Shown here piece after piece: positions 576 to 33,591 of a DNA stretch of 43,366 bases. This DNA comes from Algibacter sp. GTDB lineage: Bacteria > Bacteroidota > Bacteroidia > Flavobacteriales > Flavobacteriaceae. How positions within the stretch are numbered: position 1 is the stretch's first letter; every line of letters begins with the position of its first letter. A program made the position numbers and the translations under genes. The stretch is from the NCBI RefSeq assembly GCF_029245835.1, contig NZ_JAQWOO010000039.1, positions 1 to 43,366 on the forward strand, given 5' to 3'. Under the pieces are notes generated by a model, which searched no databases, was not told the origin of the DNA, and saw only the letters and a program-made list of their open reading frames with translations.

Positions 576-1604
576 ATGTACATCAGCATTTCAGCCCAAA
601 CATTAGGCAACAATTTTTCACAAAGTGTTGGGGACTTTGTGCAGTATTTGGAAAAGGAAAATGAGGGTGTAATAATCGAAGAACAAGAACATTTTTTTAA
701 TCAGTATGGCGATGAGTATTCCGCTAAAGAGGTCATAAAGGATATTGACAATAACACCGCAAAACTCAAAAAGCATGAGCCTAAGTTTTATAGCATTACC
801 GTAAGTCCGAGCCAACGGGAATTAAAACAATTACAGAACAGTAGCAATGATTTAAAGCATTACACCCGTGAATTGATGAAAGACTATGTCACCGCTTTTA
901 ATCGTGAAATCAATGGCAAACCTATTACCATTAGCGATATTAAATATTATGCCAAAATAGAACATACAAGATCCTTTAAAGGCACTGATACACAGGTCAA
1001 AGAAAACCAACCGTATGCCACCCAAATTTTAAAGCTAAAACAAGACATAAGAAAAATAGAGAGTGGCACACTAGAAGGTAATATCAAAAAGAACAGGCAA
1101 ACAATAAAGAAACTGGAGCGCACAGCACCCCATCAGCAAAACGGAAAACGCATTGTCCAGGGCATGCAAAAAGATGGTAATCAAAGCCATATCCACATTA
1201 TTGTCAGTCGCAAGGATGCTTCTAATTCTGTAAGCTTATCTCCAGGAAGCAAATATAAAGCCTCTGATGTGGCTATTAACGGCAAGCTCGTTAAACGAGG
1301 TTTTGATAGGGACAGCTTTTTTGCCAAAGCAGAACAAACTTTTGATAGAACCTTTGCCTACAAACGTAATTATGCGGAATCCTATCAAGCCAGAAAGGGG
1401 TTTATTAAAAACCCTAAACTCTACTTTTCAAGCTTATTGGGATTACCGACCCATGAACGTGCCATTGCCTTTAAAATACTTGGTAAAGCTGGAGTTCCGC
1501 TAGCCTGTATTCCAACAAACCAAGTGCAGCTCGCCTTAAAAACCATCAAAACATTAAAACATGGCATTGATATCGCCATAAAATCAGGATCCATCGGAAT
1601 CTAA
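576..1604 (+). CDS. mobB: MobB-like relaxase (DUF5712 type)
   Basis: A 342-residue protein resembling the DUF5712/MobB relaxases of Bacteroidota mobile elements, which nick oriT and pilot the strand during conjugative transfer. The clearest motif is SHIHIIVSRKD at about residues 204-214: the HxH array of relaxase motif III that binds the catalytic metal. A candidate catalytic tyrosine lies in the N-terminal part (FVQYLEKEN, about residues 22-30). The middle (about 145-190) is charged and probably coiled-coil, and the C-terminus is more hydrophobic. It sits between the BfmA/BtgA-like gene and the coupling-protein gene, the usual relaxosome order. The length appears intact and no frameshift is seen. 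Confidence 0.75.
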   Translation: MYISISAQTLGNNFSQSVGDFVQYLEKENEGVIIEEQEHFFNQYGDEYSAKEVIKDIDNNTAKLKKHEPKFYSITVSPSQRELKQLQNSSNDLKHYTRELMKDYVTAFNREINGKPITISDIKYYAKIEHTRSFKGTDTQVKENQPYATQILKLKQDIRKIESGTLEGNIKKNRQTIKKLERTAPHQQNGKRIVQGMQKDGNQSHIHIIVSRKDASNSVSLSPGSKYKASDVAINGKLVKRGFDRDSFFAKAEQTFDRTFAYKRNYAESYQARKGFIKNPKLYFSSLLGLPTHERAIAFKILGKAGVPLACIPTNQVQLALKTIKTLKHGIDIAIKSGSIGI

Positions 1605-1637
1605 AAAAATTAATAAATCATATAAAACATATCAATT

Positions 1638-3230
1638 ATGCTACCATTAAATCTTACAACTATCCTAAGCATCCTAATCGGGTCATCAATCCTCTTCTAT
1701 ATTCTATATAGGCTCTCCAGATATGCGTTTATTTTTAACCTACTGCTCCTATTAAGTTTTTTTGCAATACTGTTATTGATTGATAAAAGTGTCCTTGATA
1801 TTAGCAAAGCAGTATTAGCCATTGGATGCCCTTTACTTTTTATTAATGTTGTGATGTATGTATTTCTTCATAACAAAGAGGGTTCTATTAATGCCAAAAA
1901 GATGTACAAAGTACATTTCAAACTAAAGCATGGGAAGCTTTTTATTCAAAATATTAAACGTGGCGCATCCATTATTGGTTCGGCAGGAAGTGGTAAAACA
2001 GAAAGTGTGGTTTATAATTTCATGCAACATTTCAGTAGGTATGGCTTTTCTGGCGTCATTCATGACTATAAGGATTTTGAGATTACAGAAATGGCATATC
2101 CACTTTTTAAAGCACGGAACATTCCTTTTTATATTGTTTCCTTTGATACCATATACGATCGGGTAAATCCCATTGCACCCAAGTATATGGAGAATGAGGA
2201 AAGTGTCAATGAAGTCTCCAGAGTGCTTATGGAGAACTTATTGGAACAAAAAGAGTCAGGAACAAATAGTTCCAGTAAGTTTTTTACCGATGCTGCTGAG
2301 GGGTTGATTGGAGGTTTGATATGGAAACTCAAAACGGCCTATCCAGAATATTGTACCCTACCACATTTGATTGCCATCTATCAATATTTGGATACCGATA
2401 GTCTCATCGCTTTTTTAGAAAGCAATAAAACGTCCAGAGCTATGGCTAGTGCTTTTATTAGTGGCAAGGATTCAGACCGGCAGACCGCAGGGGTTAAAAG
2501 CACTCTGGCCAATGCCTTAAAAAAGATATGCACCAAGCATATTTTTATGGTATTATCTGCTGATGATGTGCCACTGGCAATTAACCATTCAGAGACTCTT
2601 GGCGTGATTTCAGTGGTGAACAATCCGAAATTTGAAACCGCCTATGCACCATTAATAGCGACCATTGTGCATACCATTACCAAACAGATGAGCGTGCGAC
2701 ACCGAAAACCTTCTTTTCTACTCATGGAAGAAGCATCGACCATTCGGCTCTTGAACATGCAACGTATTCCTGCTACCTTGCGAAGCTATAACATTGCGAC
2801 CATTTATGTGATGCAGGATAAAGTGCAAAATGATATCATGTATGGAGATAAAGTTAGTAGAGCAATATTAAGTAATCTATCTTATCAATTTTTTGGAAAA
2901 GTGAATGATCCAGACACCGCAAAATACTATGAGCGCTTTTTTGAACTTATTAAAATGAAAACGACCAGCATCAATAAAGGACATAATCTGAATTTTGATA
3001 CTAGAGTCACCAAAGGGGAAAAGGAAGTCTCAAAAGTAAGAGCTGATATTTTCTTTAAACTAAAATCTGGAGAATTTATAAGTTTTGCTGATGGCAATGA
3101 CAAAAGGGTGCAATTCAAACTACAAGGCATTAAAAAGAAACTACCAAAAGCAAAAAAATATTCAAAGAAAGACCTTAAAAGGAATTTTAAACGGATTCAT
3201 CGAGAGGCACAGTCGCTATTTATTAATTAG
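1638..3230 (+). CDS. traG: TraG/VirD4-family type IV coupling protein
   Basis: A 530-residue membrane-anchored ATPase of the TraG/VirD4 (T4CP) family, which delivers the relaxase-DNA complex to a type IV secretion channel. Residues 1-80 carry two to three hydrophobic membrane segments. A Walker A motif, GSAGSGKTES, lies near residues 113-122, and a Walker B-like stretch, PSFLLMEEAS, lies near residues 358-367. The sequence TIYVMQDK after it suits the conserved sensor region of the family, and the C-terminus is lysine-rich. It is the last gene of the mobilisation block, 33 nt after the relaxase. No other type IV secretion genes occur in the window, so the element is either mobilised in trans or continues to the left. 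Confidence 0.85.
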   Translation: MLPLNLTTILSILIGSSILFYILYRLSRYAFIFNLLLLLSFFAILLLIDKSVLDISKAVLAIGCPLLFINVVMYVFLHNKEGSINAKKMYKVHFKLKHGKLFIQNIKRGASIIGSAGSGKTESVVYNFMQHFSRYGFSGVIHDYKDFEITEMAYPLFKARNIPFYIVSFDTIYDRVNPIAPKYMENEESVNEVSRVLMENLLEQKESGTNSSSKFFTDAAEGLIGGLIWKLKTAYPEYCTLPHLIAIYQYLDTDSLIAFLESNKTSRAMASAFISGKDSDRQTAGVKSTLANALKKICTKHIFMVLSADDVPLAINHSETLGVISVVNNPKFETAYAPLIATIVHTITKQMSVRHRKPSFLLMEEASTIRLLNMQRIPATLRSYNIATIYVMQDKVQNDIMYGDKVSRAILSNLSYQFFGKVNDPDTAKYYERFFELIKMKTTSINKGHNLNFDTRVTKGEKEVSKVRADIFFKLKSGEFISFADGNDKRVQFKLQGIKKKLPKAKKYSKKDLKRNFKRIHREAQSLFIN

Positions 3231-3647: not shown

Positions 3648-4532
3648 TTATTTATTTTTGATTAAACATGGTTTGGTGTTAATTATATCAAAATACATCT
3701 TGGCATAACGATTCCCGATTTCTTGTTGTGAAGCTGTATCGTAATGCATATTATCACCTATATCTACACCAAAATCTTTAGTATGAACACAACGGTAGTT
3801 GTCAATAGCATTATTTGCATTTAGAAGGATTTTATTAATACTTTTGTATTGAGGATAATCTTGTGAAATATTTTCCATGAAAGCACCAATTGTGGCTGAA
3901 ATAAATGGTAAATTAGGTAGACTTAAATCTAGTCTAATATTTTCTACAATTTTTTTGAGTTTAGCTTCATACATTTTGTAGCGATTGCCTTTTGAATCAG
4001 ATTCTCCCTGAAGCCAAAGCGCAGCAATTACATTTACTTTTATGTTTTTTGGAAAATCTACTAAAGCTTTTGTAGTGCGTCTAAGGGCCTCCTTATATAA
4101 ATCTGCTCCTGGCATCCAGAGGTCTATCCAAGACCCTCCTTTCGCACAAGGAATTAGTGCTATTAAGGCTGTACTATCTTTTTCTAGTAATGCTTCTGCA
4201 AAATCTAATCCCGGTCCAACACCTGCATTACTACTTCCATCAATTAAATCAGGTATGCCATTTGTGTGCAATGGGTGTATAGCTGGATACCATTTATCAT
4301 TTGTCATATTCATTGAAATTATTTGCGGATTTTCAATTTGCTTTTCAGGTATCTTACCTCGCCCTTTCATATTAGATTGGCCCATTAGTAAAACTATGCT
4401 TACATGTGAGACATTAGAAGGTAAGTAATTATTACAGTTTTGAGACATAATATCGTTTGAAAACAATATACAAATAAGATAAATTTGAAACTTGTTTTTA
4501 GTAATGATGTTATTTATGAATATAAATTTCAT
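3648..4532 (-). CDS. Secreted SGNH acetylesterase (SASA/CE6-like)
   Basis: A 294-residue exported esterase that probably removes O-acetyl groups from a glycan. The N-terminus carries a hydrophobic stretch (about residues 15-30) that fits a signal peptide. The SGNH/SASA fold is marked by LLMGQSNMKGRG (nucleophile Ser53 within GQSNM), by WLQGESDS (block with a conserved QGE) and by a C-terminal DNMH in which Asp and His would complete the catalytic site. The length is normal for a single-domain CE6/SASA enzyme. It is the last gene of the minus-strand operon led by the GH78 gene, next to a second, larger esterase. The acetylated substrate is inferred from context; assignment to CE6 rather than another SASA branch is uncertain. 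Confidence 0.75.
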   Translation of the reverse strand: MKFIFINNIITKNKFQIYLICILFSNDIMSQNCNNYLPSNVSHVSIVLLMGQSNMKGRGKIPEKQIENPQIISMNMTNDKWYPAIHPLHTNGIPDLIDGSSNAGVGPGLDFAEALLEKDSTALIALIPCAKGGSWIDLWMPGADLYKEALRRTTKALVDFPKNIKVNVIAALWLQGESDSKGNRYKMYEAKLKKIVENIRLDLSLPNLPFISATIGAFMENISQDYPQYKSINKILLNANNAIDNYRCVHTKDFGVDIGDNMHYDTASQQEIGNRYAKMYFDIINTKPCLIKNK

Positions 4533-4607: not shown

Positions 4608-6149
4608 TTAATTTTCAATTTTTGTGGCATCACCCCATTCGTCAGTTCTAAATGATGACACTGGTAAAAGGTTTGTTCCAAAAAGGGTTCCCATTACCCA
4701 ATTACGCCAAGCATATCTTACAGCTACAGGATTAAGCACCTTGTCACTAATAACAAATACGTCCTTGCCATTTTTTATTTTTGCCTTAGCTTGATAAAAC
4801 ACTTTATCTTCTCCAGCTATTTCAAAACCACTTAAATTTTCACAGGAGTACAAACCCATTTCCGCATTTTTAAACTTCAAAAGGATACCCCCATTTTCTT
4901 CCTCCAGTGAATTATAAACGGGAGAATTACAATCTATAGTTTCATAACCATAGGTTTTATTAAGAGCATTAAACAATAACCTGTCAGCTACTTGTTTCTT
5001 TTTGGGAGGATGAATGGAATATTTGTCACCAATATCCATGGTTATGGTAATCCCTGAGTTTGGAATTAAATCTAAACATTGCAATTGCGTTTCGCGGATA
5101 AAAGCACTATTGTCAACTGTTTGAAAGGCATTATTATTCCCATATGGAAAGGGCGCAATTTGTACGTAATAAAACGGGAAATCTCCAATTCCCCAACGCG
5201 ATCGCCAATCTTTTACCATCGCTGGGAAAAGTTTTTTGTAATTCTCAGGCTCTTTACGGTTAGCTTCACCTTGATACCATAATACGCCTTTTATTGAATA
5301 GGGAATTAAAGGGTATATCATGGCATTAAACAATACTGTAGGAATTTTCTGTGTTTGTTTTGTAATATTTTCATTGTCAAGGTTAACAGGTTGAAGAGAA
5401 CTCAATACCTCATTGCTTATCCATGCCTGGACTGAACTTGCGCCCCAAGATGAATGTATCATCCCCACAGGACAATCTAAAATTTCCTGAAGTTGCTGAC
5501 CAAAGAAATAAGCAACTGCACTAAAGTTTGAAACAATTTTTGGAGAGGCCTGCTGCCAGCCTGTATACTTTTCAACATCTTTTAATGGCGTTTTTGAACC
5601 AACATTATCAACAGTAAAAAAGCGTAGATTTGAATTATTAGAACATGCAGTCGCCATGACTGAACCAAATATTGGTTGCCCATTATTGCCTTTTATAGGC
5701 ATATGCATATTAGATTGGCCAGAACATAACCACACCTCTCCAAATAAGATATTTTCTAATGTAATATTTGAAGTTTCATCATTTATTGTAATGGTTTGGG
5801 GTTCTTTACTGTTGGTTGTTTTCACAGCAACACGCCAGTTACCATCTTTGCCTGCTTGAATACTAATGGGCTTACTTAACCAAGAAGTATTAATAGCAAT
5901 TTTCTCATCGACATCAGCCCAACCCCAAAGCATAATAGTTGTATTGCGCTGTAAAACCATATTGGAGGAAACAATAGATGGAAGTTTAACCTCTGCATTG
6001 ATTGTTTGTACAAAAAGTATTATAAACACTGTTATTAATGAAATAAATGGTATCCTTCTAATTTTACATATGTGACTTTTAGAAGTTATATAAGTATTCA
6101 TCAGAACTACAAGTGCAAATATTATTACAAGTTTGGTTTTCGCTATCAT
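4608..6149 (-). CDS. Sialate O-acetylesterase-like enzyme (CE20-type)
   Basis: A 513-residue exported esterase of the SASA group. After a leader come a beta-rich region (VKLPSIVSSNMVLQR, about residues 54-68) typical of the bacterial sialate O-acetylesterase family, the nucleophile motif CSGQSNM (Ser146), GVLWYQGEANR, and a late DKYSIHPPKK motif that supplies the catalytic His. Marine members of this type act as carbohydrate acetylesterases, so sialic acid need not be the substrate. The leader is odd: two hydrophobic stretches (residues 7-16 and 34-50). Initiation at Met17 (6101) would leave one conventional signal peptide and is equally possible. The gene lies 76 nt upstream of the smaller esterase in the same operon. 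Confidence 0.82.
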   Translation of the reverse strand: MIAKTKLVIIFALVVLMNTYITSKSHICKIRRIPFISLITVFIILFVQTINAEVKLPSIVSSNMVLQRNTTIMLWGWADVDEKIAINTSWLSKPISIQAGKDGNWRVAVKTTNSKEPQTITINDETSNITLENILFGEVWLCSGQSNMHMPIKGNNGQPIFGSVMATACSNNSNLRFFTVDNVGSKTPLKDVEKYTGWQQASPKIVSNFSAVAYFFGQQLQEILDCPVGMIHSSWGASSVQAWISNEVLSSLQPVNLDNENITKQTQKIPTVLFNAMIYPLIPYSIKGVLWYQGEANRKEPENYKKLFPAMVKDWRSRWGIGDFPFYYVQIAPFPYGNNNAFQTVDNSAFIRETQLQCLDLIPNSGITITMDIGDKYSIHPPKKKQVADRLLFNALNKTYGYETIDCNSPVYNSLEEENGGILLKFKNAEMGLYSCENLSGFEIAGEDKVFYQAKAKIKNGKDVFVISDKVLNPVAVRYAWRNWVMGTLFGTNLLPVSSFRTDEWGDATKIEN

Positions 6150-6420: not shown

Positions 6421-7830
6421 TTATTTACTAATATTTGTGTATTTTTTTACATAATTTTCACATTCTACTCTTAATTCATCAAGAATCGATTTGTATTCTG
6501 GATTATTAGCCAAATTAATTAATTCATCAGGATCTGTTATTAAATCATGCAAATACTCATATGGAGGATTTTGCTCAAAATAAACCGCATATTTATAGCG
6601 TTCATTTCTTACACCTTCCCATTTCGGAATTATTTTATCAGGATATAAATGTTCACAAAAAAAACTTGTTCTCCAGTTTGTCACGGTATCCTTTTCTAAA
6701 AATTGTTTTAAACTTATACCCTGGTAAGATTTAGGAACAGTAACTCCAGCATATTCTAAAAAAGTAGATGGTAAATCTAAATTCAACACCATATTATCCA
6801 CTACTTTTCCTCGTTTTTCTTTAGTTACCCTTGGATCAAAAATTATCATTGGTATTCTTAATGATTGTTCATAATGAGACCATTTTCCAGCAAAACCTCT
6901 ATCACCCATATAATAGCCATTATCAGCAGCATAAACAATAATAGTATTATCTGCTAAACCTAATTTTTCTAATTCTTTGGTTATCCGACCAATAGTATAA
7001 TCTATACCACTTATTAATCTATAATAAGCTTTCATATTAGTTTGATATTTTTCAGGTGTATCCCATCTCCAGAAATAACGAATTCTATTTAATGATTCTT
7101 TCATAAATTTTGGATGTGCATTGTAAATAGTACTATCGTTTAATCTTGGTTCTGGTATTCGTATATCTTCATACATACCATCTACTTCTTTAATCCAAGG
7201 ATAATGACCAAAACCGGGTCTTAAATCGCTATCTTCTGCGTGTGCAGCATTAAAACTTACAGATAAACAAAAAGGTTGTGTTTTGTCTTGTTGGTTTAAA
7301 AACTCAATAGCATAATCACCATCTAATTCTGTTTCATGTTTATTACTTCCGTCAGGCATTTCATTCCAATATCGCTTTGTTGGTTTAAAGTAATCAAACC
7401 AATTTTGAGGCTCTTTCTTACCCATAATACTAAAACCAAATTTTCCAATAAACCCAGTTTTGTACCCTTCTTTTTTTAATAGTTTTGGGTAAACTTCCTT
7501 TGAAAGTAAAGTGTCTAGGGGGATTTGCATATTACTAACACCATTACTCCTAGATGTCATACCTGTCAGGATAGTTGCTCTACTAGCCATACATATTGAA
7601 GTTGTAACAAAAGCATTAGAGAAACGGACACCTTCCTCTGCTAGTTTATCTATATTAGGGGATTTAATAATTTCATGACCATAACATCCCAGTGCATCAT
7701 TTCTTTGATCGTCAACAAGGATAAAAATGATATTTGGCTTTTTAGCTATTAGTTTTTCTTCTTTATTTATGCATGAGGTTAAAGTAAAACTTAATATTAT
7801 AAAAGTTATACATAATTTTATTTTTTCCAT
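6421..7830 (-). CDS. Formylglycine-dependent sulfatase lipoprotein (S1 family)
   Basis: A 469-residue S1-family sulfatase that would hydrolyse sulfate esters on an algal-type polysaccharide or its oligosaccharides. The N-terminus is a lipoprotein signal ending in LTSC (lipid-modified Cys20). KPNIIFILVDDQRND supplies the metal-binding aspartates (Asp40, Asp41). ICMASRATILTG carries the Cys80 that is converted to formylglycine, in the CxASR rather than the commoner CxPSR form. Downstream, IIVYAADNGYYMGDRG and FAGKWSHYEQSLRIPMI contribute further metal and active-site residues. The length is full. It sits in the GH78 operon between the beta-helix and esterase genes. No maturase (anSME or FGE) is in the window, so activation needs a gene elsewhere. 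The S1 subfamily is not assigned. Confidence 0.9.
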   Translation of the reverse strand: MEKIKLCITFIILSFTLTSCINKEEKLIAKKPNIIFILVDDQRNDALGCYGHEIIKSPNIDKLAEEGVRFSNAFVTTSICMASRATILTGMTSRSNGVSNMQIPLDTLLSKEVYPKLLKKEGYKTGFIGKFGFSIMGKKEPQNWFDYFKPTKRYWNEMPDGSNKHETELDGDYAIEFLNQQDKTQPFCLSVSFNAAHAEDSDLRPGFGHYPWIKEVDGMYEDIRIPEPRLNDSTIYNAHPKFMKESLNRIRYFWRWDTPEKYQTNMKAYYRLISGIDYTIGRITKELEKLGLADNTIIVYAADNGYYMGDRGFAGKWSHYEQSLRIPMIIFDPRVTKEKRGKVVDNMVLNLDLPSTFLEYAGVTVPKSYQGISLKQFLEKDTVTNWRTSFFCEHLYPDKIIPKWEGVRNERYKYAVYFEQNPPYEYLHDLITDPDELINLANNPEYKSILDELRVECENYVKKYTNISK

Positions 7831-7863: not shown

Positions 7864-9738
7864 TTAATTTAGTTTAAATGGGTTTTTTGCCATTTTAAAC
7901 TCATCAAAATCATTAATTCCATTGTTGTTAGAATCTTTATCTAATTTATTCTCAATATTGTCACCATCTGCATCTCCAGGAATTTCTAAAACGTCCGCAA
8001 GACCATCATAATCACTATCCCAAAGAAACCATCCCTTTTGAAAAATATTGTGAGAATTATTTGTTATTTCTGTATTTGAAAATTGAAAAATACTGTTATC
8101 AGGTTTAATTTCAACATAACTAAATTTGTTACGGCTTAAAAACACCCCATTTGAATTTTTTATATTTAATGCAGAGACACCATTTGGAAGGTTGAAAATG
8201 CTATTTTTTATTATTAATTGAGGGCTGCCCAATTGGTTATATTCTTTTGAAGGACATTCTATAAATATACCTGCTTTAGTTAAATTAACAAATGCGGCAT
8301 TGTCAACTATTAGGCGTTGTGTTGGAGGTCCTTCAATTCCACTTGTTGATAATGCCATATTTATTCCTTGGCCATTATCGAGAATAGCACAATTTTTAAT
8401 TGTTGTGGGTTGATGTGTTAATATAGCTCGTTGCAATTGCGTTCCAAACTGACAATTTTGGATAACTGCTTCAGTATCGGATTGAAGATATAGGATATGA
8501 CCTACCTTGATATCAGGAACGACTTGATTTAAAGTAACCCATCCACTTTTGTGATCAATGTATTCAAAAGTTAGGATTTTGGCTGTAGCTAGTTCCTTCT
8601 TGTTTATTGGGTCATAAACCATGACTCTTTTTCCAATACCTAGATTCGTGTTATCACGAGTGTCCATATGCCGAATTTTAATTTTTTGGGATGAAACTAT
8701 TTTTTCTATTTCATCCCCAGATATCTTGATATGGATGCCATCATCTAAAGTCCCTTCTATGTAACAATTTTCAATAAGGGGTTGAATTTCATTCCCTTTA
8801 ATGTGAATCCCATCACTACAACTTGCAATTGTGCGTCCAGGTTTACGAGTTATAATAAGTCTTCGAACCACCAAATTGGTACAACTTCTTGCATTTAATG
8901 TCATTTTAGGCGAGGCATAGGAAATAATATTTTCTACAGTAATATTATTAGAATGATTTACTTGTATGTTGGCATAATTACTAATATAATTTTCGCCAAA
9001 CTCAGAAGACTTTTGGCTTGAACTATAAACCCGGTCCATTTCTGGTAGCCATACTTTCATTGCAAAATAATCACCAACCTTAGCTTCATATTGGCGATGC
9101 ATACGGTAATTAACAGCATACCTGCAACCTTCAATATTTTTGATACTAGAGATTCTGGAATGCCCTTGATAAAATTTTAGGCTTTCACCATTTAACGTTG
9201 CGCAATCTGAAACTCTACCATCAACATAGTATTCTTCATTTCTAACATATGGCTGAGGATAACCATCATCTACTTTAAATTCTAGATAACCTTTTGAATT
9301 ATTGATTTTTGTTATTCTGCCTTGTGTAAAGGGCAACGGTGAGTAATCGATTTGAAAGTTTCTTAGCGTGATGTCTTTCGACCTATATAGTTCAAATGCC
9401 CTACGATTAGGATTAATTAGTAATAAAGCATTATTACCCTCGATTATTAAATCATCGGCACGATCAAGAAACATAGTTCCTGCAAGATGGTTTTCTTCTT
9501 TACCCAGATAGTATATTTTATTTTTTTCAAAAATAATTTTAGCAGGAACATTGATTGAAGATACCATTTTAAAAAGTTTTCTAAGCGCAGGACCGTCATC
9601 AGTTTTACCATCTCCAATAGCGCCATAATCACTTACATTTAGTATTAATCGGTCATTTTTGTCTGCTTTTTTTAGTTGACCAAATGAGCAAAAACTCAAA
9701 GTTATTAATACAAAAAAAATTAATATTCCCTTATTCAT
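7864..9738 (-). CDS. Secreted right-handed beta-helix protein (pectate lyase superfamily)
   Basis: A 624-residue exported protein with a right-handed parallel beta-helix. NVSDYGAIGDGKTDDGPALRK (about residues 35-55) is the hallmark entry of the Pectate_lyase_3 group, followed by many short N/G/I-rich coils. Near the middle it has SDGIHIKG and GTLDDGIHIK, an Asp-rich pair reminiscent of the active-site coils of beta-helix glycosidases such as GH110; this resemblance is from memory and untested. The C-terminal ~50 residues are Asp/Asn-rich calcium-type repeats (DADGDNIENK, DSNNNGIND), like thrombospondin type 3 repeats. The frame opens at 9816, but the Met at 9738 gives a clean signal peptide (NKGILIFFVLITLSFCSFGQ), so it is preferred. 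It is probably a polysaccharide lyase or glycosidase. Confidence 0.72.
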   Translation of the reverse strand: MNKGILIFFVLITLSFCSFGQLKKADKNDRLILNVSDYGAIGDGKTDDGPALRKLFKMVSSINVPAKIIFEKNKIYYLGKEENHLAGTMFLDRADDLIIEGNNALLLINPNRRAFELYRSKDITLRNFQIDYSPLPFTQGRITKINNSKGYLEFKVDDGYPQPYVRNEEYYVDGRVSDCATLNGESLKFYQGHSRISSIKNIEGCRYAVNYRMHRQYEAKVGDYFAMKVWLPEMDRVYSSSQKSSEFGENYISNYANIQVNHSNNITVENIISYASPKMTLNARSCTNLVVRRLIITRKPGRTIASCSDGIHIKGNEIQPLIENCYIEGTLDDGIHIKISGDEIEKIVSSQKIKIRHMDTRDNTNLGIGKRVMVYDPINKKELATAKILTFEYIDHKSGWVTLNQVVPDIKVGHILYLQSDTEAVIQNCQFGTQLQRAILTHQPTTIKNCAILDNGQGINMALSTSGIEGPPTQRLIVDNAAFVNLTKAGIFIECPSKEYNQLGSPQLIIKNSIFNLPNGVSALNIKNSNGVFLSRNKFSYVEIKPDNSIFQFSNTEITNNSHNIFQKGWFLWDSDYDGLADVLEIPGDADGDNIENKLDKDSNNNGINDFDEFKMAKNPFKLN

Positions 9739-9847
9739 TCTAATCGTTTTTATGTACTCCTGTTTTCTGTGATGTTCATAATTATTGGGTATTAAATCTG
9801 ATAATTTTTTTTCCAACTTTAATTAGTATTAAGTTAAATACTCATAT

Positions 9848-12127
9848 TCATCTAGCAGTAATTTTATACTCACCTCCTTTAATCTGATATAAAGTATAAT
9901 TGCCATCTTTTTCATTTGATGTAACTTTTTTGTTGCCAATTTGTACTTCTTTGTTTTTATTAGGTATATAAATTACGGCTTCACTACCATAAGGGACTAT
10001 TACTTCCATGTCTATCCTACCATTAATCTTAGCCACTTTAACTCCTACTTTACCCGCAACAGTTTCATTATACGCTTCTGCATATTCAAGACCACCTAAT
10101 TGAGGTTTAATTCTAAATTTTGTCCATGCTGGCTCAATGGGTTCTAAACCACATACATATTGAGAAAGAATTGTTAAACCACCGCCACTCCATGCGTGGT
10201 TGGTGGAACCACCACCAAAGCCATCTTTACCAATACCCCAGCCTTCAAAAAGAGTCGTATGGTTATTGTCGTCCACCATAGGTTGAAAACGTTTTTTCAA
10301 TCGCTCCAATCCGTATTCTGATTCCCCCATGAGGAACAAAGCCTCACATACATATTTTTCCATGTAAGGGCTGGCATACTCTTGTGTTTGTAACACTTTA
10401 TATATGGCTTTAAACTTATCAGCATCTGCCAATCCCGCAACCACAGCCAATGCTTGACCACGATCGTCTATATCATCTTGGTAGTGGTACGAACGGTATT
10501 GGTCTCCTTTCCAAAAGGTATCGTTAAAAGCTTTTTTGAAATTGACCATAAGATCTGCTGCCCATTTGGCTTCTTCATCTTCTCCCAAAAGCTCCGACAT
10601 GTTTTTGTAACCTTTTAATGCCAGATAAAACCACTCATTCATCAATAAATCTTTATCAACATTGGTGCCCCAGTCTCCCCAATACCAGACTTTGCTATTA
10701 TTACTCGTCAATCTTTTTACCAACACACCGTTTTCATCTAATTGCCATACATCCAAATAACGTTTTACTCCATCGTATACCTTGGCAATAGTTTCTTTAT
10801 CTCCCGTATTCCAATAGTAGTTCCAGAAGCCATAGTAACCGACGCTAGCCAGCATTTGTCCGGGTAGCTCTCTTTCCCAATTCCCGGCGGGTATAGGTGA
10901 AAAAATAGTTCCGTCTTCCCGTTGCCAGTTGATGAGCTCCAATATTCCTTTCTGCGTTAAAAATCTACTTTTGGGGTCGAGTGCATAAAACGCTTCGCCA
11001 CTTTCGTTTACCATATCGCCCCACCATTGTGAACGTTCTCTGTCTGGACAATCCATATAGGTATCACGCATTGTTACATAAAGGGTACGCTCTGCCTTTT
11101 TCCATAGCCTGTTAAAAAAATCATCACTACTTTTAAAACTTCCCGTAAACTCAGTATTGTAACCTGTTTCCCTATATTTTAGATCTAAAACCTTAACACC
11201 TTTTGGTATAACATAATAAACCTTCTGTCCATTCATCCAGCCTAGATTTTCATATTCTTGTATCCCATTTTTTGTGATATATTCTCCACGTACATTAAGT
11301 GGACCTCCACCTTCATAATGGTCAGTAAGTAAGGTTATCTCTTCTCCTTCCTTAGCTTCAATTTTAAAGAATGGAGTGATTTGAGCATTGTATGGAAGAC
11401 GACCTACAATAGTATCTCCCTTACTTATAAATGGGAATTCAAAATTATTTTCATACCGCTTCATCCCAAAATCTTTCCATTGAGGAATTGGACGCTTTAC
11501 CAGCCTGTTCCATGGTTTTGACTCAGGTGCTCCTTCTAGTTTTGCAGCACGAAATCCTACCAAATTGGTATTTGGTTCTATCCAATTGAAATTTCCTTTC
11601 CTAGCATCAAAAAGTATATTCGATTCAGGTAGACGAAAATTGGGTAGAGGCAATCCTGTATTGGAGAAACCCGGATCTAAAAGAGCCTGCCATGTATTAT
11701 CACTATAGAGACTAATATCTGGACAGTCAAATGCCAATGCTGCCAAACCACTGCTATTATGCGAAAAACCATCTTTTCCAAAATACCATAACAAAATCGC
11801 AATGGTATTTTTTCCTTTTTTTAAATAAGGTGCCATATCAACTTTATCATAATACGTATCATTAGGATTTGGCCCCCGTTTTAATTGACCTTCAAAAACA
11901 ACTAACTCCCCATTTATCCACAACCAGTATTTTGAATCGCAGGCTATTTTAGCAATAACTTGATCTGGTACAGATTCTAGTACAATATCTTTCCTAAAGT
12001 TTATCCATGTATTAGTAGCATTTTGATTTTCCCAACAGGTAATTCTCTCAGCTTGCCAGTTTTCATTTTGGGCAAAAGCTGTCATACTCAGGTAGCTGAT
12101 TAAAAGGATGATGGTTAATTTTTTCAT
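9848..12127 (-). CDS. GH78 alpha-L-rhamnosidase
   Basis: A 759-residue secreted enzyme (signal peptide ending TAFA-Q) that releases terminal alpha-L-rhamnose by inversion. An N-terminal beta-sandwich lectin-like region (about residues 25-330) carries WLWINGELVVFEGQL. The (alpha/alpha)6 barrel follows, with the GH78 signature MDCPDRERSQWWGDMVNE holding the general-acid Glu. Later come LFEGWGIG, whose Glu is a likely general base, and TNHAWSGG. The C-terminus is a small beta-domain ending about residue 759. It is the first gene of the minus-strand operon, 94 nt downstream of a TAnnTTTG promoter with two AGTCA half-sites, so it is probably induced together with rhamnose catabolism. The family call is secure; the natural linkage is unknown. 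Confidence 0.93.
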   Translation of the reverse strand: MKKLTIILLISYLSMTAFAQNENWQAERITCWENQNATNTWINFRKDIVLESVPDQVIAKIACDSKYWLWINGELVVFEGQLKRGPNPNDTYYDKVDMAPYLKKGKNTIAILLWYFGKDGFSHNSSGLAALAFDCPDISLYSDNTWQALLDPGFSNTGLPLPNFRLPESNILFDARKGNFNWIEPNTNLVGFRAAKLEGAPESKPWNRLVKRPIPQWKDFGMKRYENNFEFPFISKGDTIVGRLPYNAQITPFFKIEAKEGEEITLLTDHYEGGGPLNVRGEYITKNGIQEYENLGWMNGQKVYYVIPKGVKVLDLKYRETGYNTEFTGSFKSSDDFFNRLWKKAERTLYVTMRDTYMDCPDRERSQWWGDMVNESGEAFYALDPKSRFLTQKGILELINWQREDGTIFSPIPAGNWERELPGQMLASVGYYGFWNYYWNTGDKETIAKVYDGVKRYLDVWQLDENGVLVKRLTSNNSKVWYWGDWGTNVDKDLLMNEWFYLALKGYKNMSELLGEDEEAKWAADLMVNFKKAFNDTFWKGDQYRSYHYQDDIDDRGQALAVVAGLADADKFKAIYKVLQTQEYASPYMEKYVCEALFLMGESEYGLERLKKRFQPMVDDNNHTTLFEGWGIGKDGFGGGSTNHAWSGGGLTILSQYVCGLEPIEPAWTKFRIKPQLGGLEYAEAYNETVAGKVGVKVAKINGRIDMEVIVPYGSEAVIYIPNKNKEVQIGNKKVTSNEKDGNYTLYQIKGGEYKITAR

Positions 12128-12220
12128 TTTTTAGTTTATAAATATTGAATTATATTTCATGCAATGCTTAATGCCATAGTTTTATATTGGACTTGTTATT
12201 TTTTTGCTAAATTTTTATGA

Positions 12221-12306
12221 CAAAGCTATAAAAGATGGTTGTTTATAGTTTTAAAGAATTGACTAAAAAGCAGGGGCAAAATGACTTAAATCCAACATTT
12301 TCGGAT
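12221..12306 (-). promoter_or_regulatory. Shared promoter/operator, GH78-operon copy
   Basis: Read on the minus strand from 12306, this block matches 33463-33548 at 75 of 86 positions without a gap, by hand alignment. It contains two direct half-sites, TTTAAGTCATTT (AGTCA at 12286-12282) and TTTTAGTCAATT (AGTCA at 12264-12260), 22 bp apart. A Bacteroidota -7 box TAGCTTTG follows at 12228-12221. No good -33 TTG is seen, which suits an activator-dependent promoter. Two tandem half-sites two helical turns apart are typical of AraC-family dimers, and the nearby HTCS ends in such a domain. Binding by that HTCS is an inference. Confidence 0.8.
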
Positions 12307-12314: not shown

Positions 12315-13304
12315 TTTGATTAAACGCTTTTACACCAGTATTGATGTGTCACTGCTATTACCAACCTATCAAATAGCCTGTTACCAAAATATCGGCGATT
12401 GAGTTTATAGCAAAACTCGTCAAGATAATTTTGCAAATATTTGCCGTCAATTTTGTGGTAAATCCCCAAGAGCGTTCTTTTTGCATTGCTTATTGCAATA
12501 TGAACCCATTTTAAGGTAGTCTTGGTTGTTTCCTTATCCGATTTTACGCTTACGTACATTTCGACATAATCCGAAATATTCACATAGCTTGTGCTCTTGT
12601 CACTGAAAACTATGCACTTATCATCAAGATTGCCCGATACAACCTCGTTGACTCTTCTTTTTTATGTGTCTGCAATACTTTCATTTTAAAATAACGGCAA
12701 TGGCTATCTTTTTTTCCAGTTTCCAGGTCTTCAAGTTTTGTTGACTCCGCCATAACGGCAACGTTGGACTGTCTTTGACTGCCCCTGCCACGTTTAAGTT
12801 TTTTTCTATCCTTTTCTTTTGTCGCCTTCTCGAAATATCCCTCGTCGAATTCAATCATCCCCTCCAGACCGTAAGTATCATCACGCTTTCCCATTGCAGA
12901 GCGAATTTTGTGCATCAAGGACCACACCGTATTATAGCGGGAATGCCCAAGCTGACGCTGTAACTCGACCTCAGAGATCCCTTTTTTGGTGAAGGTCATA
13001 AAAGCCATCGCAAGATACCAGGTTCGCACGGGCAAGTTTGAATTCTCCATAACAGTGCCACTGCGCAGGGAGGTTCTGAAACTACAGTCGGCACACTGCC
13101 AAGCCCATTTTGCCTTGAGCCAATAATGTTTTTTTCCTTTACATTTTTTACATATAACACCTTCTCGCTCACGGGCACTTCTCATATCTTCGCGACAGGA
13201 GTTTTCATCTGGAAATTGATTAATAAATTCTAAAATATTCATACATTTATCTTTTACTTAAAGATAATAAATATTAATTACTGGTGCAATTCCGACTAAT
13301 CAAT
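12315..13304 (-). mobile_element. IS1595-family insertion sequence (about 990 bp)
   Basis: The element is bounded by imperfect inverted ends: TTTGATTAAACGCTTTTACA at 12315 and, read inward from 13304 on the other strand, ATTGATTAGTCGGAATTGCA; both continue into CCAGTA. The bases immediately outside, AAAAATTA at 12307-12314 and 13305-13312, form an 8-bp direct repeat, the target duplication length usual for IS1595. The flanks are AT-rich and the similarity runs a little further, so exact ends carry some doubt. The element lies between the HTCS gene and the GH78 operator, abutting the conserved operator block. Confidence 0.75.
12320..13242 (-). pseudogene. Frameshifted IS1595-family transposase
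   Basis: An ISXO2-like transposase broken in two frames. The first part (13242-12610) has a zinc-ribbon N-terminus (CKKCKGKKHYW and CADCSFRTS), a helical region, and the first catalytic Asp in GMIEFDEGYFE. Near 12651-12656 the frame changes: after THKKEE the true continuation VNEVVSGNLDDKCIVFSDKS lies in another frame, as though one base were lost. The remainder (to 12320) carries WVHIAISNAKRTLLGIYHKI and NYLDEFCYKLNRRYF, the C-terminal DDE-type core. Rejoined, it is about 305 residues, normal for the family. The last codons overlap the inverted repeat. It is probably inactive unless another copy supplies transposase. Confidence 0.85.
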
Positions 13305-13371: not shown

Positions 13372-16300
13372 TTATTCAAATTCTTTAATAAATTGACTAG
13401 GTGTTTTATTGAACTGTTTTTTAAATTCTTTACTAAAGTAGTTTACATCTGAAAAGCCAATTTCATATGCGACTTGAGCAACATTTAAGTTTGTTGTTTT
13501 AAATAACTTTGCCGCTTGTTTAAACTTAATGGTTCTTACAAATTGATTAGGACTCATGTCTGTTATACCCTTAATTTTATTATAGCAAACCGTTTTACTG
13601 ATGCCTAAATAATCATACAAATCTTGAAGAATAAAATTAGGCTCAGATAATTTTTGGATTATAAAATCATGTATAGATTCAATAAGTTCCTGATCTTCCT
13701 TGTTTTTTGCAAAAGTTCTCGATTCAAAATTTAAATCTTCACTAAATTTTTGTTTGAGTACAATTCTTTGTTTTAATAAATTATTAATTCTTGAAATTAA
13801 TAATTCATATTCAAATGGTTTTGTTAAATATGCATCAGCACCAACATCATATCCTTCGATTTTATCCTCAGATGCAGCCTTTGCAGTAAGCATGATTATT
13901 GGTATATGAGATGTTTCAAAAGAGTTTTTTAGTTTTTTTGTAAGCTCTGAGCCATTCATTTCTGGCATTAATAAATCTGTGATAATTATATCTGGAGTAA
14001 AATTTTTAAGACTTTCAAGGGCCTCAACTCCATTTCTTGCAGTTTTTATATTGTAGTAGTCCATCAGTTTTTGACTCAAAAGTGCTAAAAGTTCGTGGTT
14101 GTCCTCAACCAATAAAATATTGTTCTCAAATTCTTTGTCCAAAATGTCTGGAATTAGAATTGTATTAATATTTTGTAATTGAGAAGATAATACCCCTACC
14201 TCCCATGAACTTTTATTTGATGTTTCAAATTCTCTATAGGCCTGCTTTTTACCTGGGATTATAACTGTAATTGTAGTTCCCTGCCCTAATTTGCTATCGA
14301 CTTTAATTTCTCCTTTATGAAGTGATACAAATTCTTGTACTATCGATAATCCAATACCATAACCTTTGGCAAAAAAGCTTCTGGTAAGGTCTTCTTCTTT
14401 GTAAAACCTATTAAAAATTTTATCATTTTGCTCAAAATTAAATCCTTTTCCAGAATCTTTTACAGTTATCATAATACTTGAAAAATCTGCGTTCAAATCT
14501 ACTGTTATATATCCGTTAGGAGGAGTAAATTTGAAAGCGTTAGTTAACAAATTCGTAACCACTTTTTCCAGTTTCTCTTGGTCAAACCAATAATTTACTT
14601 TGGCATTTTTTATATTTGTACTAAATTTTATATCTTTTTGTTGTGAGACATAGTTGAAATTATTCGTTATTTTATTAAAAAATTTTATTATGTCTGTTTT
14701 TGTTACTTCTAATTGAATATTCTTAGTCTGTAATTTCCTAAAATCAAGGATTTCATTTACCAATTTCAAAAGATTATAGGAATTTTGATGTGCAATATTT
14801 ATTAACTTTTCACCTCTAGTATTTTCTAATATCTTACCATTAATTATTTCTCTAATAGGATTAATAATTAATGTCAAAGGCGTTCTTAATTCGTGAGATA
14901 TGTTAGTAAAAAATTTCAACTTAAAATCAGTTATACTTTTTTCTAATTTTAAGGAATTTTGAAGCCTAACAATTTTTCTAATTATCGTAAAAATTAAATA
15001 AGATATCGATATAAGAAATACGACGTAGAAAAAATAGGCTAAACTGCTTCTCCATATTGAAGGAGCAATGTTAATTTTTAATTTCTTAACACTACCTTCG
15101 ATATCTTTTAATCTTATATTTAAGTCATAATTTCCCGAAGGTATATTGGTATATGTTACAAGGTTATTGGTATTATTTAACCAATTCTTATCAAAACCTT
15201 CAAGCTTGTATTCAATATTTTTTGAGGTATTTAATTGATAATCGTCTGTGGAAAATGTAATACTAAAATTATTTTCATTGTACTTTAAATTTATTTTTTC
15301 AATGGAATTAATGTCTTCAGTTAAAATACCTTTTTGATCTACTTCTTTTAATTGATTAGAAACGTGTAATGCTGTCAATAGGATGTTGGGGACTGAATTT
15401 GAATCCTTTTTTAAATTTTTAGGGTTTAAATAGACAATGCCTTTTGTGGTTCCAAAATATAGAATTCCATTGTCATTAAATGATTTGCTTTCAGTAAATT
15501 CATTTGAAGGTAACCCATCTTCGTAGGTGAAATTATTAAATTTATCAGAATTGTAATTAAATTTAGTTAAACCATTTTTGGTACTTATCCAAAGGCTAGC
15601 ATTATCATCTTCAATAATTGAGCAAACCATATTATTAGACAATCCATCATTTATGCTGTAGTTTATGAAATTGTTAGATTTTTGTTGATATAAATATAGA
15701 CCTCCACCATTAGTACCTATCCAAACTCTATTACTTTTATCTTGAAACAAACACCCAATATCATTATAATTTAAAGAATTTGGATTGTGAATATTCTTGT
15801 AATAAGCCACTACATTTTTTGGTAATAAATCATTTTTATTCACTCTAAAACTACAAAGACCATTTAAACCACCAAACCATATATTGTTTTCATTATCTAC
15901 AAGTAAGCATCTTCCAAAATTAATAGAGAACGGAAGATGATTTTTAAGATACTTATTATAATCTAAAAAGTTTAGTTCATCGCTATTTTCTTCAAGTAAA
16001 AATAGGCCATTACCATACGAAGCTAACCAAATTCGTCCATTTCTATCCTCTACCATGTCGTATATTTCGTTGCAATCAAAAAAATACTTACTGCTATTGT
16101 TGAATAAATGAATCATGTTAGCCTGAGACAAGTTGTCTCTATATTTTTTTAGATTTAACATATACAATCCATTACCCTTTGTTCCTATCCACATACGGCC
16201 TTTTGAATCCTCTAAAAATGAAGTTATTAGAACCTCTGAGAAATCGGCTTTTAATTTGTTTTTAAAACTAAATTTGAAATTTTTATCCTTATCATAAACA

Positions 16301-17721
16301 TAAATTTGTCCTAAAGTAGAACCAAACCACTTATTTCCATAAGAGTCATTATAAATGGCGTCAAACTTATTAGTCAATGGATGTTCTATCTCTTCTACTG
16401 GTGTAATATTTTGTATAGGTTTAGGGCGTATATTTGTTTTTGATATCCCATATTGAGTCCCAATCCAAATATTGGCATTTTTGTCCTCGAAAATACTTAG
16501 TATTCCATTAGCCACAAGGCTTTTTGAATTATTATGAATATTCTTAATTTGAGAAATTTGATTGGTTTTGTAGTCAAAATAAACGAGACCTTGCTTTTTT
16601 GTACCAATCCAAATATTGCCATAACTGTCTGATTCAAATGAACTGATAAAATTCTGCTTAGTTAAACCATCGTGTTTAAAAGAAAGTGGGTAAAATTGGA
16701 GTTCTTGAATGGATAAATCGAGTTTAAATAGACCTTCATGGTTTTGAGATTCAAACCAGGCAAATTTGTTTTTTTCAACATATATATTACTGACCTCTCC
16801 AAATGATTTATTCTGAAATGTGTTTTTTTGGGTAACCAATTGTCCAAACTCATTTACAACTACTATTCCCTCACTTAATGTAGTAAGTATTATAAAGTCA
16901 TTGCAGTTTTTTATTGAGGTAATATCACTAAGATTAATACCTTCAATTTCATTAAAAGTGGAATGCTCATTAGTTTGTAAGTTATATTTAATTAACCCGT
17001 ACTCTTCAGAGGACAGATATGAATAGTCACCTCTTATAAGATGTTTTACATCTATATTGTTTTTTGATTTGTTAGCTATAAGATATTCAAACTTGCCTTC
17101 ATTGTTTTTGGGATTTATTTTTAAATTTAATAACCCATAATTTGAGTTCAAGTAAATATTGTTTCTATTTTTTGCAAAAACACTTGATATTCTAAAGTCT
17201 TTATCTAAAATTTCACTATCAAACAAATATTTGCCTAAAAGATTTTGACCATGTTCCATATCTAATAGAAAAACCCCAAAATTTTTATATATTAAAACAG
17301 CTATTTTTTCATCTACAAAAATCAAATGATTATTCAAACTTGGATAATCAATTCCAAGTTCGGAAGAAAGATTTTTTAATGTGTGTTTTTTCTTGTTATA
17401 AACTAAATGGCTTCCATCAAAAATATCAAGCCATAAATTTCCAAAATTATCTTCTAAAATTTTATTTATTCTATTGTTATATGTTTTTACATGTTTTTCA
17501 TTGGCAATTACGTTAATCAATTCTTTACCATCAAAACGATTTAAGCCACTCATTGTACCAATCCAAATAAAACCTTCTTTATCTTGAATTATGTCTATTG
17601 CTTGATTATCAGACAATCCTTCATTTATGGTAATACTTTGAAAACTACTATGGAATTGAGCATATAACGATGTTGAAAATATACTAAAACATAAAAGTAT
17701 TATGTGACGAAGTCCTAACAT
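13372..17721 (-). CDS. Hybrid two-component system sensor/response regulator (HTCS)
   Basis: A 1449-residue one-protein signalling system. After a signal peptide (HIILLCFSIFSTSLYA) comes a periplasmic sensor of about 14 beta-propeller (Reg_prop) repeats with recurring GxxWIGTxxGL motifs (to about residue 770), then a Y_Y_Y domain (to about 880). One membrane helix lies near 890-912. The cytoplasmic part has HisKA with NISHELRTPLTLI (His near 940), HATPase_c with KDSGKGF and GYGIGLSIV, a receiver with LLVEDNHE and TDLLMPEMNG (phospho-acceptor Asp near 1248), and a C-terminal AraC-type helix-turn-helix (VAYEIGFSDVNYFSKEFKKQF). Such proteins sense glycan fragments in the periplasm and activate their PUL. 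It lies between the two gene sets that share an AGTCA-type operator and is the obvious candidate activator. Confidence 0.95.
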   Translation of the reverse strand: MLGLRHIILLCFSIFSTSLYAQFHSSFQSITINEGLSDNQAIDIIQDKEGFIWIGTMSGLNRFDGKELINVIANEKHVKTYNNRINKILEDNFGNLWLDIFDGSHLVYNKKKHTLKNLSSELGIDYPSLNNHLIFVDEKIAVLIYKNFGVFLLDMEHGQNLLGKYLFDSEILDKDFRISSVFAKNRNNIYLNSNYGLLNLKINPKNNEGKFEYLIANKSKNNIDVKHLIRGDYSYLSSEEYGLIKYNLQTNEHSTFNEIEGINLSDITSIKNCNDFIILTTLSEGIVVVNEFGQLVTQKNTFQNKSFGEVSNIYVEKNKFAWFESQNHEGLFKLDLSIQELQFYPLSFKHDGLTKQNFISSFESDSYGNIWIGTKKQGLVYFDYKTNQISQIKNIHNNSKSLVANGILSIFEDKNANIWIGTQYGISKTNIRPKPIQNITPVEEIEHPLTNKFDAIYNDSYGNKWFGSTLGQIYVYDKDKNFKFSFKNKLKADFSEVLITSFLEDSKGRMWIGTKGNGLYMLNLKKYRDNLSQANMIHLFNNSSKYFFDCNEIYDMVEDRNGRIWLASYGNGLFLLEENSDELNFLDYNKYLKNHLPFSINFGRCLLVDNENNIWFGGLNGLCSFRVNKNDLLPKNVVAYYKNIHNPNSLNYNDIGCLFQDKSNRVWIGTNGGGLYLYQQKSNNFINYSINDGLSNNMVCSIIEDDNASLWISTKNGLTKFNYNSDKFNNFTYEDGLPSNEFTESKSFNDNGILYFGTTKGIVYLNPKNLKKDSNSVPNILLTALHVSNQLKEVDQKGILTEDINSIEKINLKYNENNFSITFSTDDYQLNTSKNIEYKLEGFDKNWLNNTNNLVTYTNIPSGNYDLNIRLKDIEGSVKKLKINIAPSIWRSSLAYFFYVVFLISISYLIFTIIRKIVRLQNSLKLEKSITDFKLKFFTNISHELRTPLTLIINPIREIINGKILENTRGEKLINIAHQNSYNLLKLVNEILDFRKLQTKNIQLEVTKTDIIKFFNKITNNFNYVSQQKDIKFSTNIKNAKVNYWFDQEKLEKVVTNLLTNAFKFTPPNGYITVDLNADFSSIMITVKDSGKGFNFEQNDKIFNRFYKEEDLTRSFFAKGYGIGLSIVQEFVSLHKGEIKVDSKLGQGTTITVIIPGKKQAYREFETSNKSSWEVGVLSSQLQNINTILIPDILDKEFENNILLVEDNHELLALLSQKLMDYYNIKTARNGVEALESLKNFTPDIIITDLLMPEMNGSELTKKLKNSFETSHIPIIMLTAKAASEDKIEGYDVGADAYLTKPFEYELLISRINNLLKQRIVLKQKFSEDLNFESRTFAKNKEDQELIESIHDFIIQKLSEPNFILQDLYDYLGISKTVCYNKIKGITDMSPNQFVRTIKFKQAAKLFKTTNLNVAQVAYEIGFSDVNYFSKEFKKQFNKTPSQFIKEFE

Positions 17722-29993: not shown

Positions 29994-30004
29994 AATATTA
30001 ATTT

Positions 30005-33142: not shown

Positions 33143-33591
33143 AATTGTTAATGTTTAAATATTTAGTTTTATAGATTGTAAAATTGATCAATTAGTTTCA
33201 CTCAAATAGGTTATATATTGACATATAATACATGACATTTAGTTAATTGATATATAAATATTAAATTGTTTAAAAAATCGTCATTGACTTTATTGATTTA
33301 CCGAACTAGTAAATTGTCATCTATCTAGTAACCAATATTTTTTTCGTTATTGTACCATTATTAGTATGTAATCTAAAATATATATTCCTGGGAATAAATT
33401 TTCAGATAAGGGTATTTACTAGTAATTTTCTTGGAATTCTAAACTCTGATTATATACTTTGGATCCGAAAATGTGGGATTTAAGTCATTTTGTCACTGCT
33501 TTTTAGTCAATTCTTTACCAATATAAGAAATCATCTTTTATACATTTGATAATAAATTTAAACCTAAAATTAATAAATTCAATATTAAATT
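33143..33591. promoter_or_regulatory. Divergent control region, susC and rhamnose operon
   Basis: This 449-bp AT-rich region holds the promoters of both divergent units. The rhamnose-operon promoter at 33463-33548 is described separately. On the susC side a single AAGTCAATGA reads on the minus strand near 33288, without a partner at 22 bp. No clear TAnnTTTG box for susC was found. Confidence 0.6.
33463..33548 (+). promoter_or_regulatory. Shared promoter/operator, rhamnose-operon copy
   Basis: This is the plus-strand counterpart of 12306-12221. AGTCA half-sites lie at 33483-33487 and 33505-33509, 22 bp apart, each in a TTTWAGTCAWTT context. The -7 box TACATTTG lies at 33541-33548, at the same distance as in the other copy. 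Differences cluster between the half-sites and in the spacer before the -7 box, so the half-sites themselves are the conserved part. The ATG follows 43 nt after the box, giving a short leader. Confidence 0.82.

Follow-up and report, generated by a model that had tools for sequence, protein, structure and literature searches.

A duplicated direct-repeat promoter before a GH78 operon and a rhamnose catabolic operon in Algibacter sp., with a hybrid two-component system as its putative reader

We describe a promoter tract that occurs twice in a 43,366-nucleotide stretch of DNA from Algibacter sp. (assembly GCF_029245835.1, contig NZ_JAQWOO010000039.1). The whole stretch is called the window. One copy (copy A) precedes a gene for a GH78 alpha-L-rhamnosidase, and the other (copy B) precedes a rhamnose catabolic operon. 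Judged from sequence, the two tracts are most likely a promoter plus its 5' leader, copies by descent of one activator-dependent promoter. The hybrid two-component system (HTCS) encoded at 13372 to 17721 probably controls both operons and is the putative reader of the repeat. Control of rhamnose breakdown seems to have passed from the GntR-type regulator usual for it to a polymer sensor.

Two copies of one promoter

The preliminary description of this DNA had counted 75 identities over 86 ungapped positions. The count is correct, and the best other place for the block in the window matched at 43 of 86. The AGTCA half-sites it reported, 22 bp apart from start to start in TTTWAGTCAWTT contexts, are present in both copies. 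So are the TAnnTTTG -7 boxes, at 33541-33548 and 12228-12221. The parts are as follows.

12221 to 12306, minus strand: promoter copy A (operator and -7 box), before GH78; 75/86 identical to copy B
33463 to 33548, plus strand: promoter copy B, before the rhamnose operon; same 75/86 match
12278 to 12290, minus strand: upstream half-site TTTAAGTCATTTT, copy A
12257 to 12269, minus strand: downstream half-site TTTTTAGTCAATT, copy A
33479 to 33491, plus strand: upstream half-site TTTAAGTCATTTT, copy B
33500 to 33512, plus strand: downstream half-site TTTTTAGTCAATT, copy B
12221 to 12228, minus strand: -7 box TAGCTTTG (TAnnTTTG type), copy A
33541 to 33548, plus strand: -7 box TACATTTG, copy B
12178 to 12220, minus strand: 5' leader of GH78, homologous to the rhaD leader by shuffle tests
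33549 to 33591, plus strand: 5' leader of rhaD, homologous to the GH78 leader by shuffle tests
33463 to 33479, plus strand: conserved upstream element ATCCGAAAATGTGGGAT with ATCC/GGAT ends; 16/17 identical at 12306-12290 of copy A

The direct repeat GTCAWTT has a period of 22 bp, or two helical turns. It ends 28 bp 5' of the TAnnTTTG box, which is the sigma-A -7 consensus reported for a flavobacterium in the available text of PMC9723704. No good -33 element was seen by eye in the promoter copies. Directly 5' of the first half-site, both promoters carry ATCCGAAAATGTKGGAT (33463-33479 and 12306-12290), possibly the site of a second factor.

The genome that was searched comprised 3.36 Mb in 100 contigs and was 97% complete. 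BLAST placed the full-length block at two genomic positions only, copies A and B. The second copy had an E value of 3.6e-24, and the next match had 0.011. Identity falls along the tract. Block positions 1 to 55, with the upstream element and both half-sites, were identical at 52 of 55, and positions 56 to 86 at 23 of 31. A weaker match crosses the 5' leader and reaches about as far as the rhaD ATG (33/52); one of 20,000 pair-shuffles was equally good. In an extension test of the leader homology, 3 of 1000 shuffles were equally good. Since the match passes beyond the block, what was copied is a promoter-leader tract, more than an 86-bp operator. The gradient from operator (52/55) to leader (33/52) suggests that the operator has been held by selection. 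A gapped alignment of the two tracts spans about 33449 to 33624. Beyond the rhaD ATG, homology that would have told the direction of copying was not significant (188 of 1000 shuffles equally good). For the stretch 5' of the block, 58 of 1000 shuffles were equally good; the segment tests support homology for block and leader only.

A genome search for the two-half-site pattern had been suggested. Only the extended pattern is specific. With up to three mismatches it had eight genomic matches, copies A and B at zero and six others at three; besides the two copies, none was found at one or two mismatches. A reversed control pattern likewise gave eight matches in the same search, so the six at three mismatches look like chance. 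The bare core AGTCA-N17-AGTCA is not rare, with about seven occurrences expected by chance at this genome size and composition; specificity therefore lies in the extended context.

Weak BLAST matches of the block in 13 other genomes, 14 in all (L091-L104) from 397 family genomes, were taken as chance. Twelve lie inside open frames, L102 at a frame edge, and L103 between frames. None has two nearby AGTCA sequences. Block plus leader had one weak and unrelated match among plasmid records.

Genes beside the two copies

The genes downstream of the two copies, their proposed regulator, and the divergent susCD pair are listed here.

9848 to 12127, minus strand: GH78 alpha-L-rhamnosidase (PF17389, 5e-31)
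7864 to 9816, minus strand: GH28-like protein (PF00295, 3.2e-5, weak, barely above cut-off)
6421 to 7830, minus strand: sulfatase (PF00884)
4608 to 6149, minus strand: SASA-family esterase, operon membership unsure (PF03629; 271 bp past the sulfatase gene)
3648 to 4532, minus strand: SASA-family esterase (PF03629)
33592 to 35697, plus strand: RhaD, rhamnulose-1-phosphate aldolase/short-chain dehydrogenase (TIGR02632, above cut-off)
35790 to 37070, plus strand: L-rhamnose isomerase (TIGR02629, 3e-149, under the curated cut-off)
37081 to 38454, plus strand: FGGY sugar kinase, probably rhamnulokinase (TIGR02627, 1.5e-19, under cut-off; PF00370)
38461 to 39609, plus strand: L-lactate dehydrogenase-like enzyme (NF008398, 9e-85, under cut-off)
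39650 to 41059, plus strand: probable permease with a weak NCS1-type match (TIGR00800, 1e-11, under cut-off; no Pfam match)
41223 to 42119, plus strand: aldose-1-epimerase-like protein (NF011719, 9e-24, under cut-off)
42122 to 43285, plus strand: galactokinase (TIGR00131, above cut-off)
13372 to 17721, minus strand: HTCS, the proposed regulator, with Reg_prop/Y_Y_Y sensor, HisKA, HATPase, receiver, and AraC-type HTH_18 (Pfam, above cut-off)
28212 to 33142, minus strand: susD and susC, divergent from the rhamnose operon, without an operator copy

The GH78, GH28-like, and sulfatase genes, separated by gaps of about 30 bp, are likely a single operon. The esterases had also been assigned to it; their membership is unsure because the 271-bp gap precedes both esterase genes. 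Within the genus, relatives of the GH78 protein were only 38 to 39% identical and came from four of nine other genomes.

Origin of the rhamnose operon and its missing GntR site

Relatives of rhaD at E <= 1e-100 were found in 62 of 249 family genomes, at 64 places. We examined 63 rhaD upstream regions, including that of the window. The match in G207, at a contig end, was left out, and the region of L049 was shortened by a contig end. The AGTCA repeat was found upstream of rhaD in the window copy only.

In this family, a GntR regulator gene is the usual neighbor of rhaD, and ACAGTACAGTACAGGAT often stands about 60 bp before the rhaD start. At 41 of 62 rhaD loci (L049 left out), an upstream frame within 1500 bp carries a C-terminal string characteristic of a single GntR-type regulator. 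Its representative in G125 (L031) matched GntR profiles, all under their cut-offs. The commonest shared words upstream of rhaD belong to ACAGTACAGTACAGGATA. The exact word TACAGGAT or ATCCTGTA was present in 36 of the 63 regions, 34 of them with the word 50 to 80 bp before rhaD. Three more had a variant, and 24, including the window's, had neither. In the rhaD intergenic region of the window, the best match to the GntR operator ACAGTACAGTACAGGAT has 8 mismatches in 17 positions. No GntR gene was found beside the window rhaD, whose neighbor is susC, and contig C17 has no GntR site at three or fewer mismatches.

The genome has a second rhaD, on contig C37. Its product is 89% identical to the window RhaD, and its ACAGTACAGTACAGGAT site has no mismatches. 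Five further ACAGTACAGTACAGGAT-type sites on C37 have two or three mismatches. They precede a sulfatase gene (Pfam) and, by reading, susC, a second sulfatase gene, a gene for a rhamnose-mutarotase-like small protein, and an unnamed gene. C37 also encodes a GntR protein 73% identical to that of G125. Genome-wide, ACAGTACAGTACAGGAT-type sites numbered eight against seven for the control. The count is thus no signal; the clustering of six of the eight on C37 is. An apparent GntR regulon that unites polymer and monosaccharide breakdown occupies C37 52000-102102 (L059, L260, and L261).

The window operon descends from another lineage than the C37 copy, as judged by the RhaD tree of 63 rows. There the window RhaD has the RhaD of G125 as its sister (support 99/95) and that of G152 next (100/96), both from other genera. 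The C37 RhaD falls in a clade of eight (100/98) that includes G044 of the genome's own genus; some forks inside this clade are open. By this placement, the window operon is a xenolog; it did not arise by duplication within the genome. By reading, G125 and G152 have close variants of the GntR site, so the GntR operator was probably exchanged for the HTCS-type promoter after the split from these two.

The HTCS as candidate reader

The window HTCS is the only regulator among the scanned window open reading frames of at least 100 aa. A SHIP motif, as described in the accessible part of PMC11253607, and the phospho-acceptor His and Asp were seen by eye. The genome encodes nine AraC-type domains, two of them within HTCSs. 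On contig C17, HTH_18 was found in the HTCS only.

Across the 397 genomes, the extended pattern with at most one mismatch occurred five times in genomes other than this one; the reversed control gave two. The match in G100 is intergenic, between a divergent HTCS gene and susC. The other four were set aside: L202 and L205 appear to lie inside coding sequence, and L203 and L204 resemble plasmid iterons or replication regions. Six genomes of the G100 genus were searched. Five had any match, four had the HTCS-susC intergenic region, and the repeat was kept in all four. It is a 22-bp AGTCA repeat, with AGTCG in the first half in one species; the sequence varies in the spacer and in parts of the flanks. 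Repeats of this type also accompany different HTCSs in other genera.

The window HTCS is the best candidate because the same operator type stands between divergent HTCS and susC genes in another genus, and because it is the sole AraC-type protein of the genome with matching residues. The idea of an AraC-type direct-repeat operator that joins GH78 to rhamnose catabolism is well supported. It does not extend to the whole cluster, as susC and the gene at 18113, next to the HTCS gene, lack a site. Other intergenic GTCAWTT pairs at 22 bp in the window were limited to 12423 (plus strand) and 3298 (minus strand), each with two mismatches and, by reading, not facing the next gene. When 129 loci around HTCS or DNA-binding domain (DBD) matches were scanned with position weights, the best score was 20, against 33 to 46 for the known sites. 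The scan found no such site at the genome's other HTCS, on contig C4.

Recognition residues

The DBDs of the G100 and window HTCSs are only 30% identical. Both have Thr at the first diagnostic position and Val or Ile at the second (Thr and Val in the window). Ser and Pro are the common residues there in other HTCSs. Among 87 distinct domains, Val or Ile at the second position occurred in 2 of the 84 that were scorable, those of the window and G100. In a set enlarged by G100 relatives and 60 loci chosen by DBD rank, Thr with Val or Ile occurred in 7 of 153. Besides the window, the seven comprise three from the genus of G100 and three that are new: L284, L319, and L322. Of the AraC-type domains in this genome, nine in all, the one in the window HTCS is alone in having this combination.

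The three new loci lack an exact AGTCA pair at 22 bp. L319 and L322 have related, looser 22-bp repeats adjoining the HTCS gene. We counted GTCAWTT pairs over 134 loci, with the window left out. An intergenic pair at 22 bp with at most one mismatch occurred at 6 of 11 loci with Thr plus Val, Ile, or Leu and at 2 of 123 others, one of which (L151) is a repeat array. Spacings of 20, 21, 23, and 24 bp each gave 0 of 11. Four of the six positive loci are circular evidence because the G100 genus was found by the pattern itself; without that genus, two of the three new Thr plus Val/Ile loci were positive against 2 of 123 (Fisher p 0.002). On the minus strand of L319, at about 8840 to 8790, three tandem half-sites (GGGCAT, GGTCGA, and GGTCAA) stand in 22-bp steps before a GH2-like gene that adjoins the HTCS gene.

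Weighing the explanations

Several findings weigh against the HTCS as reader and against the residue rule, and others accompany the alternatives below. The best relatives of the HTCS in the species collection were 32% identical over nearly the full length, and no best segment exceeded 35%. At E 1e-250 no relative occurred in 249 family genomes besides its own, and no close orthologue was found among the plasmids. The HTCS's own site therefore cannot be footprinted by orthologues. No operator was found before susC or the gene at 18113, and a susC site would be expected of an HTCS regulon. Twenty loci from the top of the DBD list (37 to 45% identity) had no upstream AGTCA pair at 22 bp with at most one mismatch; two of them had a pair at 21 bp instead. 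DBD identity alone thus failed as a guide to the operator. The two residue positions, which we take to be the equivalents of the MarA Trp42 and Gln91 contacts, were chosen after the window and G100 pair had been viewed. The half-site GTCAWTT was defined after L319 and L322 had been viewed, and these two are related clusters. With two mismatches allowed, pairs at 22 bp occurred at 9 of 11 loci but also at 24 of 123 others, and other spacings gave 1 to 4 of 11. No GTCAWTT pair at 22 bp with at most one mismatch was present at L284 (Thr and Ile) or at four loci with Thr plus Leu.

A soluble AraC-family rhamnose activator of the RhaR type might instead bind the repeat, sense free rhamnose, and activate both operons. 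The protein on contig C26 is an example. AraC-type RhaR motifs of Bacteroides are direct repeats with a 21-bp period, according to the available text of PMC3870299. The C26 AraC gene adjoins a RhaT-like gene (8e-72, under cut-off), and its product matches RhaS (1e-16, under cut-off); both count in favor of this activator. Its domain, however, has Asn and Phe at the two diagnostic positions. The gene lies on another contig, beside what reads as a non-phosphorylating 6-deoxysugar pathway. The extended operator has no other genomic copy at two or fewer mismatches and none that is convincing near the C26 gene. In the 19 kb around that gene, AGTCA pairs were limited to two with one mismatch, one at 21 and one at 22 bp, and each sits where a coding frame ends. 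No soluble AraC gene accompanies the rhamnose operon, and the HTCS is the sole regulator among the scanned window frames. The C26 gene is a serious rival; we consider a soluble activator unlikely. As a separate observation, C26:12249-17602 (L258) encodes an enolase-type dehydratase, an aldehyde dehydrogenase, an HpcH-type aldolase, and a RhaT-like permease beside the AraC regulator and sulfatases (names by reading).

We give slightly less credit to a promoter duplicated by chance rearrangement and kept as a basal promoter, with a repeat that no specific regulator reads any longer. There are two copies only, the leader shares in the homology, and parts of the cluster are separated by a transposase gene and a transposase-like remnant. 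All of this would fit such an event. The operator (52/55) is nevertheless far better kept than the leader (33/52), and the same repeat and spacing are kept in the HTCS-susC regions of another genus. Two regulators on the block, with an activator bound to the repeat and another factor to ATCC-N9-GGAT immediately before it, seem improbable to about the same degree. The 17-bp element is identical at 16 of 17 positions between the copies and lies almost wholly outside the half-sites. It does not stand beside the repeat in the G100 genus. Its first 12 bases occur at two window places only, and elsewhere in the genome they were searched for only within the 86-bp BLAST. A transcribed RNA leader element, either a riboswitch or an attenuator, was rejected as highly improbable. 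For the GH78 copy plus leader, folding was better than in most shuffles (z -2.8, 3/200 equally good), but the rhaD copy shows no such fold (z 0.5), and Rfam gave no match in the window. With a -7 box at its end, the block should precede the start of transcription.

Proposed mechanism and meaning

With the HTCS as reader, a periplasmic oligosaccharide of the cluster's substrate would be sensed by the window HTCS. The HTCS would then phosphorylate its own receiver. Two AraC domains would occupy the two half-sites and recruit RNA polymerase. The GH78, GH28-like, and sulfatase genes would be switched on together with the rhamnose-galactose catabolic operon. The latter would carry the copied promoter in place of the GntR operator usual in the family, with copying presumably toward it. 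Given an HTCS-type promoter in that place, catabolism would answer to the polymer sensor instead of the GntR regulator kept with the C37 cluster.

A wider proposal is tentative, although we take it seriously. A rhamnose-galactose operon acquired laterally may have been captured by a portable HTCS promoter cassette, which would have shifted central sugar catabolism from GntR control to a polysaccharide sensor. The choice of GTCAWTT may be readable from two AraC-domain residues, Thr in the first and Val or Ile in the second recognition helix, across HTCSs that are only about 30% alike. One genome holds two rhamnose clusters that are apparently wired differently, with RhaD proteins 89% identical. 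Nature has set up an experiment here on how central catabolism is taken over by polysaccharide clusters. The HTCSs and operators named above also form a small set open to testing, and the DNA code of HTCS AraC domains could be derived from it.

Other features of the window

An IS1595-type transposase gene (12610-13242) lies between the HTCS and GH78 genes. A transposase-like remnant, recognized by reading, lies at 26935-27309 between a GH36-like gene and susD; Pfam gave only a LEF-4 match there. Both lie between cluster modules. DUF5712 and TraG-type conjugation genes occupy 576-3230, at the window start beside the cluster, which suggests an integrative or conjugative element. Before susC, a CTAGTAA repeat 19 bp apart (33306-33331; TTACTAG on the susC strand) is a possible different susCD operator. 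A direct repeat upstream of GH36 (9/9, 22-bp period, GAAAGTTAA) was judged to be within chance because such matches are common in that region.

Comparison with known systems

In the family, and on C37 here, the GntR/ACAGTACAGTACAGGAT system likewise seems to tie rhamnose catabolism to a polysaccharide cluster. It differs from the window operon in regulator class and operator, and both its regulator and its operator are missing at that operon. The accessible literature on GntR rhamnose operators in Flavobacteriia contained no report of a ACAGTACAGTACAGGAT operator. In what was available on HTCS motifs, rhamnose regulons, Flavobacteria HTCS operators, and cluster rewiring, with most subscription papers outside the search, there was no report of the present arrangement. 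The HTCS-motif literature that was accessible gives motifs by regulon, and no residue-to-site code was seen in it.

The soluble AraC-family RhaR regulons (PMC3870299, Rodionova et al. 2013) likewise have a direct repeat before a rhamnose operon, with a 21-bp period (22 bp here), so far as the available text goes. A 22-bp spacing by itself therefore cannot tell an HTCS from RhaR. The window differs in that no soluble AraC gene stands beside the operon and an HTCS is the best candidate. RhaD here is bifunctional, whereas the same text gives the canonical enzyme for Bacteroidales.

A further likeness is to the HTCS regulons of B. thetaiotaomicron, in the portion of the regulon study that is accessible (PMC3878776, Ravcheev et al. 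2013). That study predicted HTCS direct repeats at an average distance of 21 bp for 16 of 36. The repeat described here is accordingly not the first readable HTCS site, since such motifs were predicted in 2013. Both systems have an HTCS with an AraC-type domain in the cluster and a direct repeat (22 bp here against about 21). In contrast to those regulons, the targets here would include a monosaccharide catabolic operon, and susCD has no site; the motif letters were not set side by side. HTCS-type direct repeats were thus already known. A predicted promoter shared by a polymer operon and a rhamnose operon without its GntR site appears to be the new arrangement.
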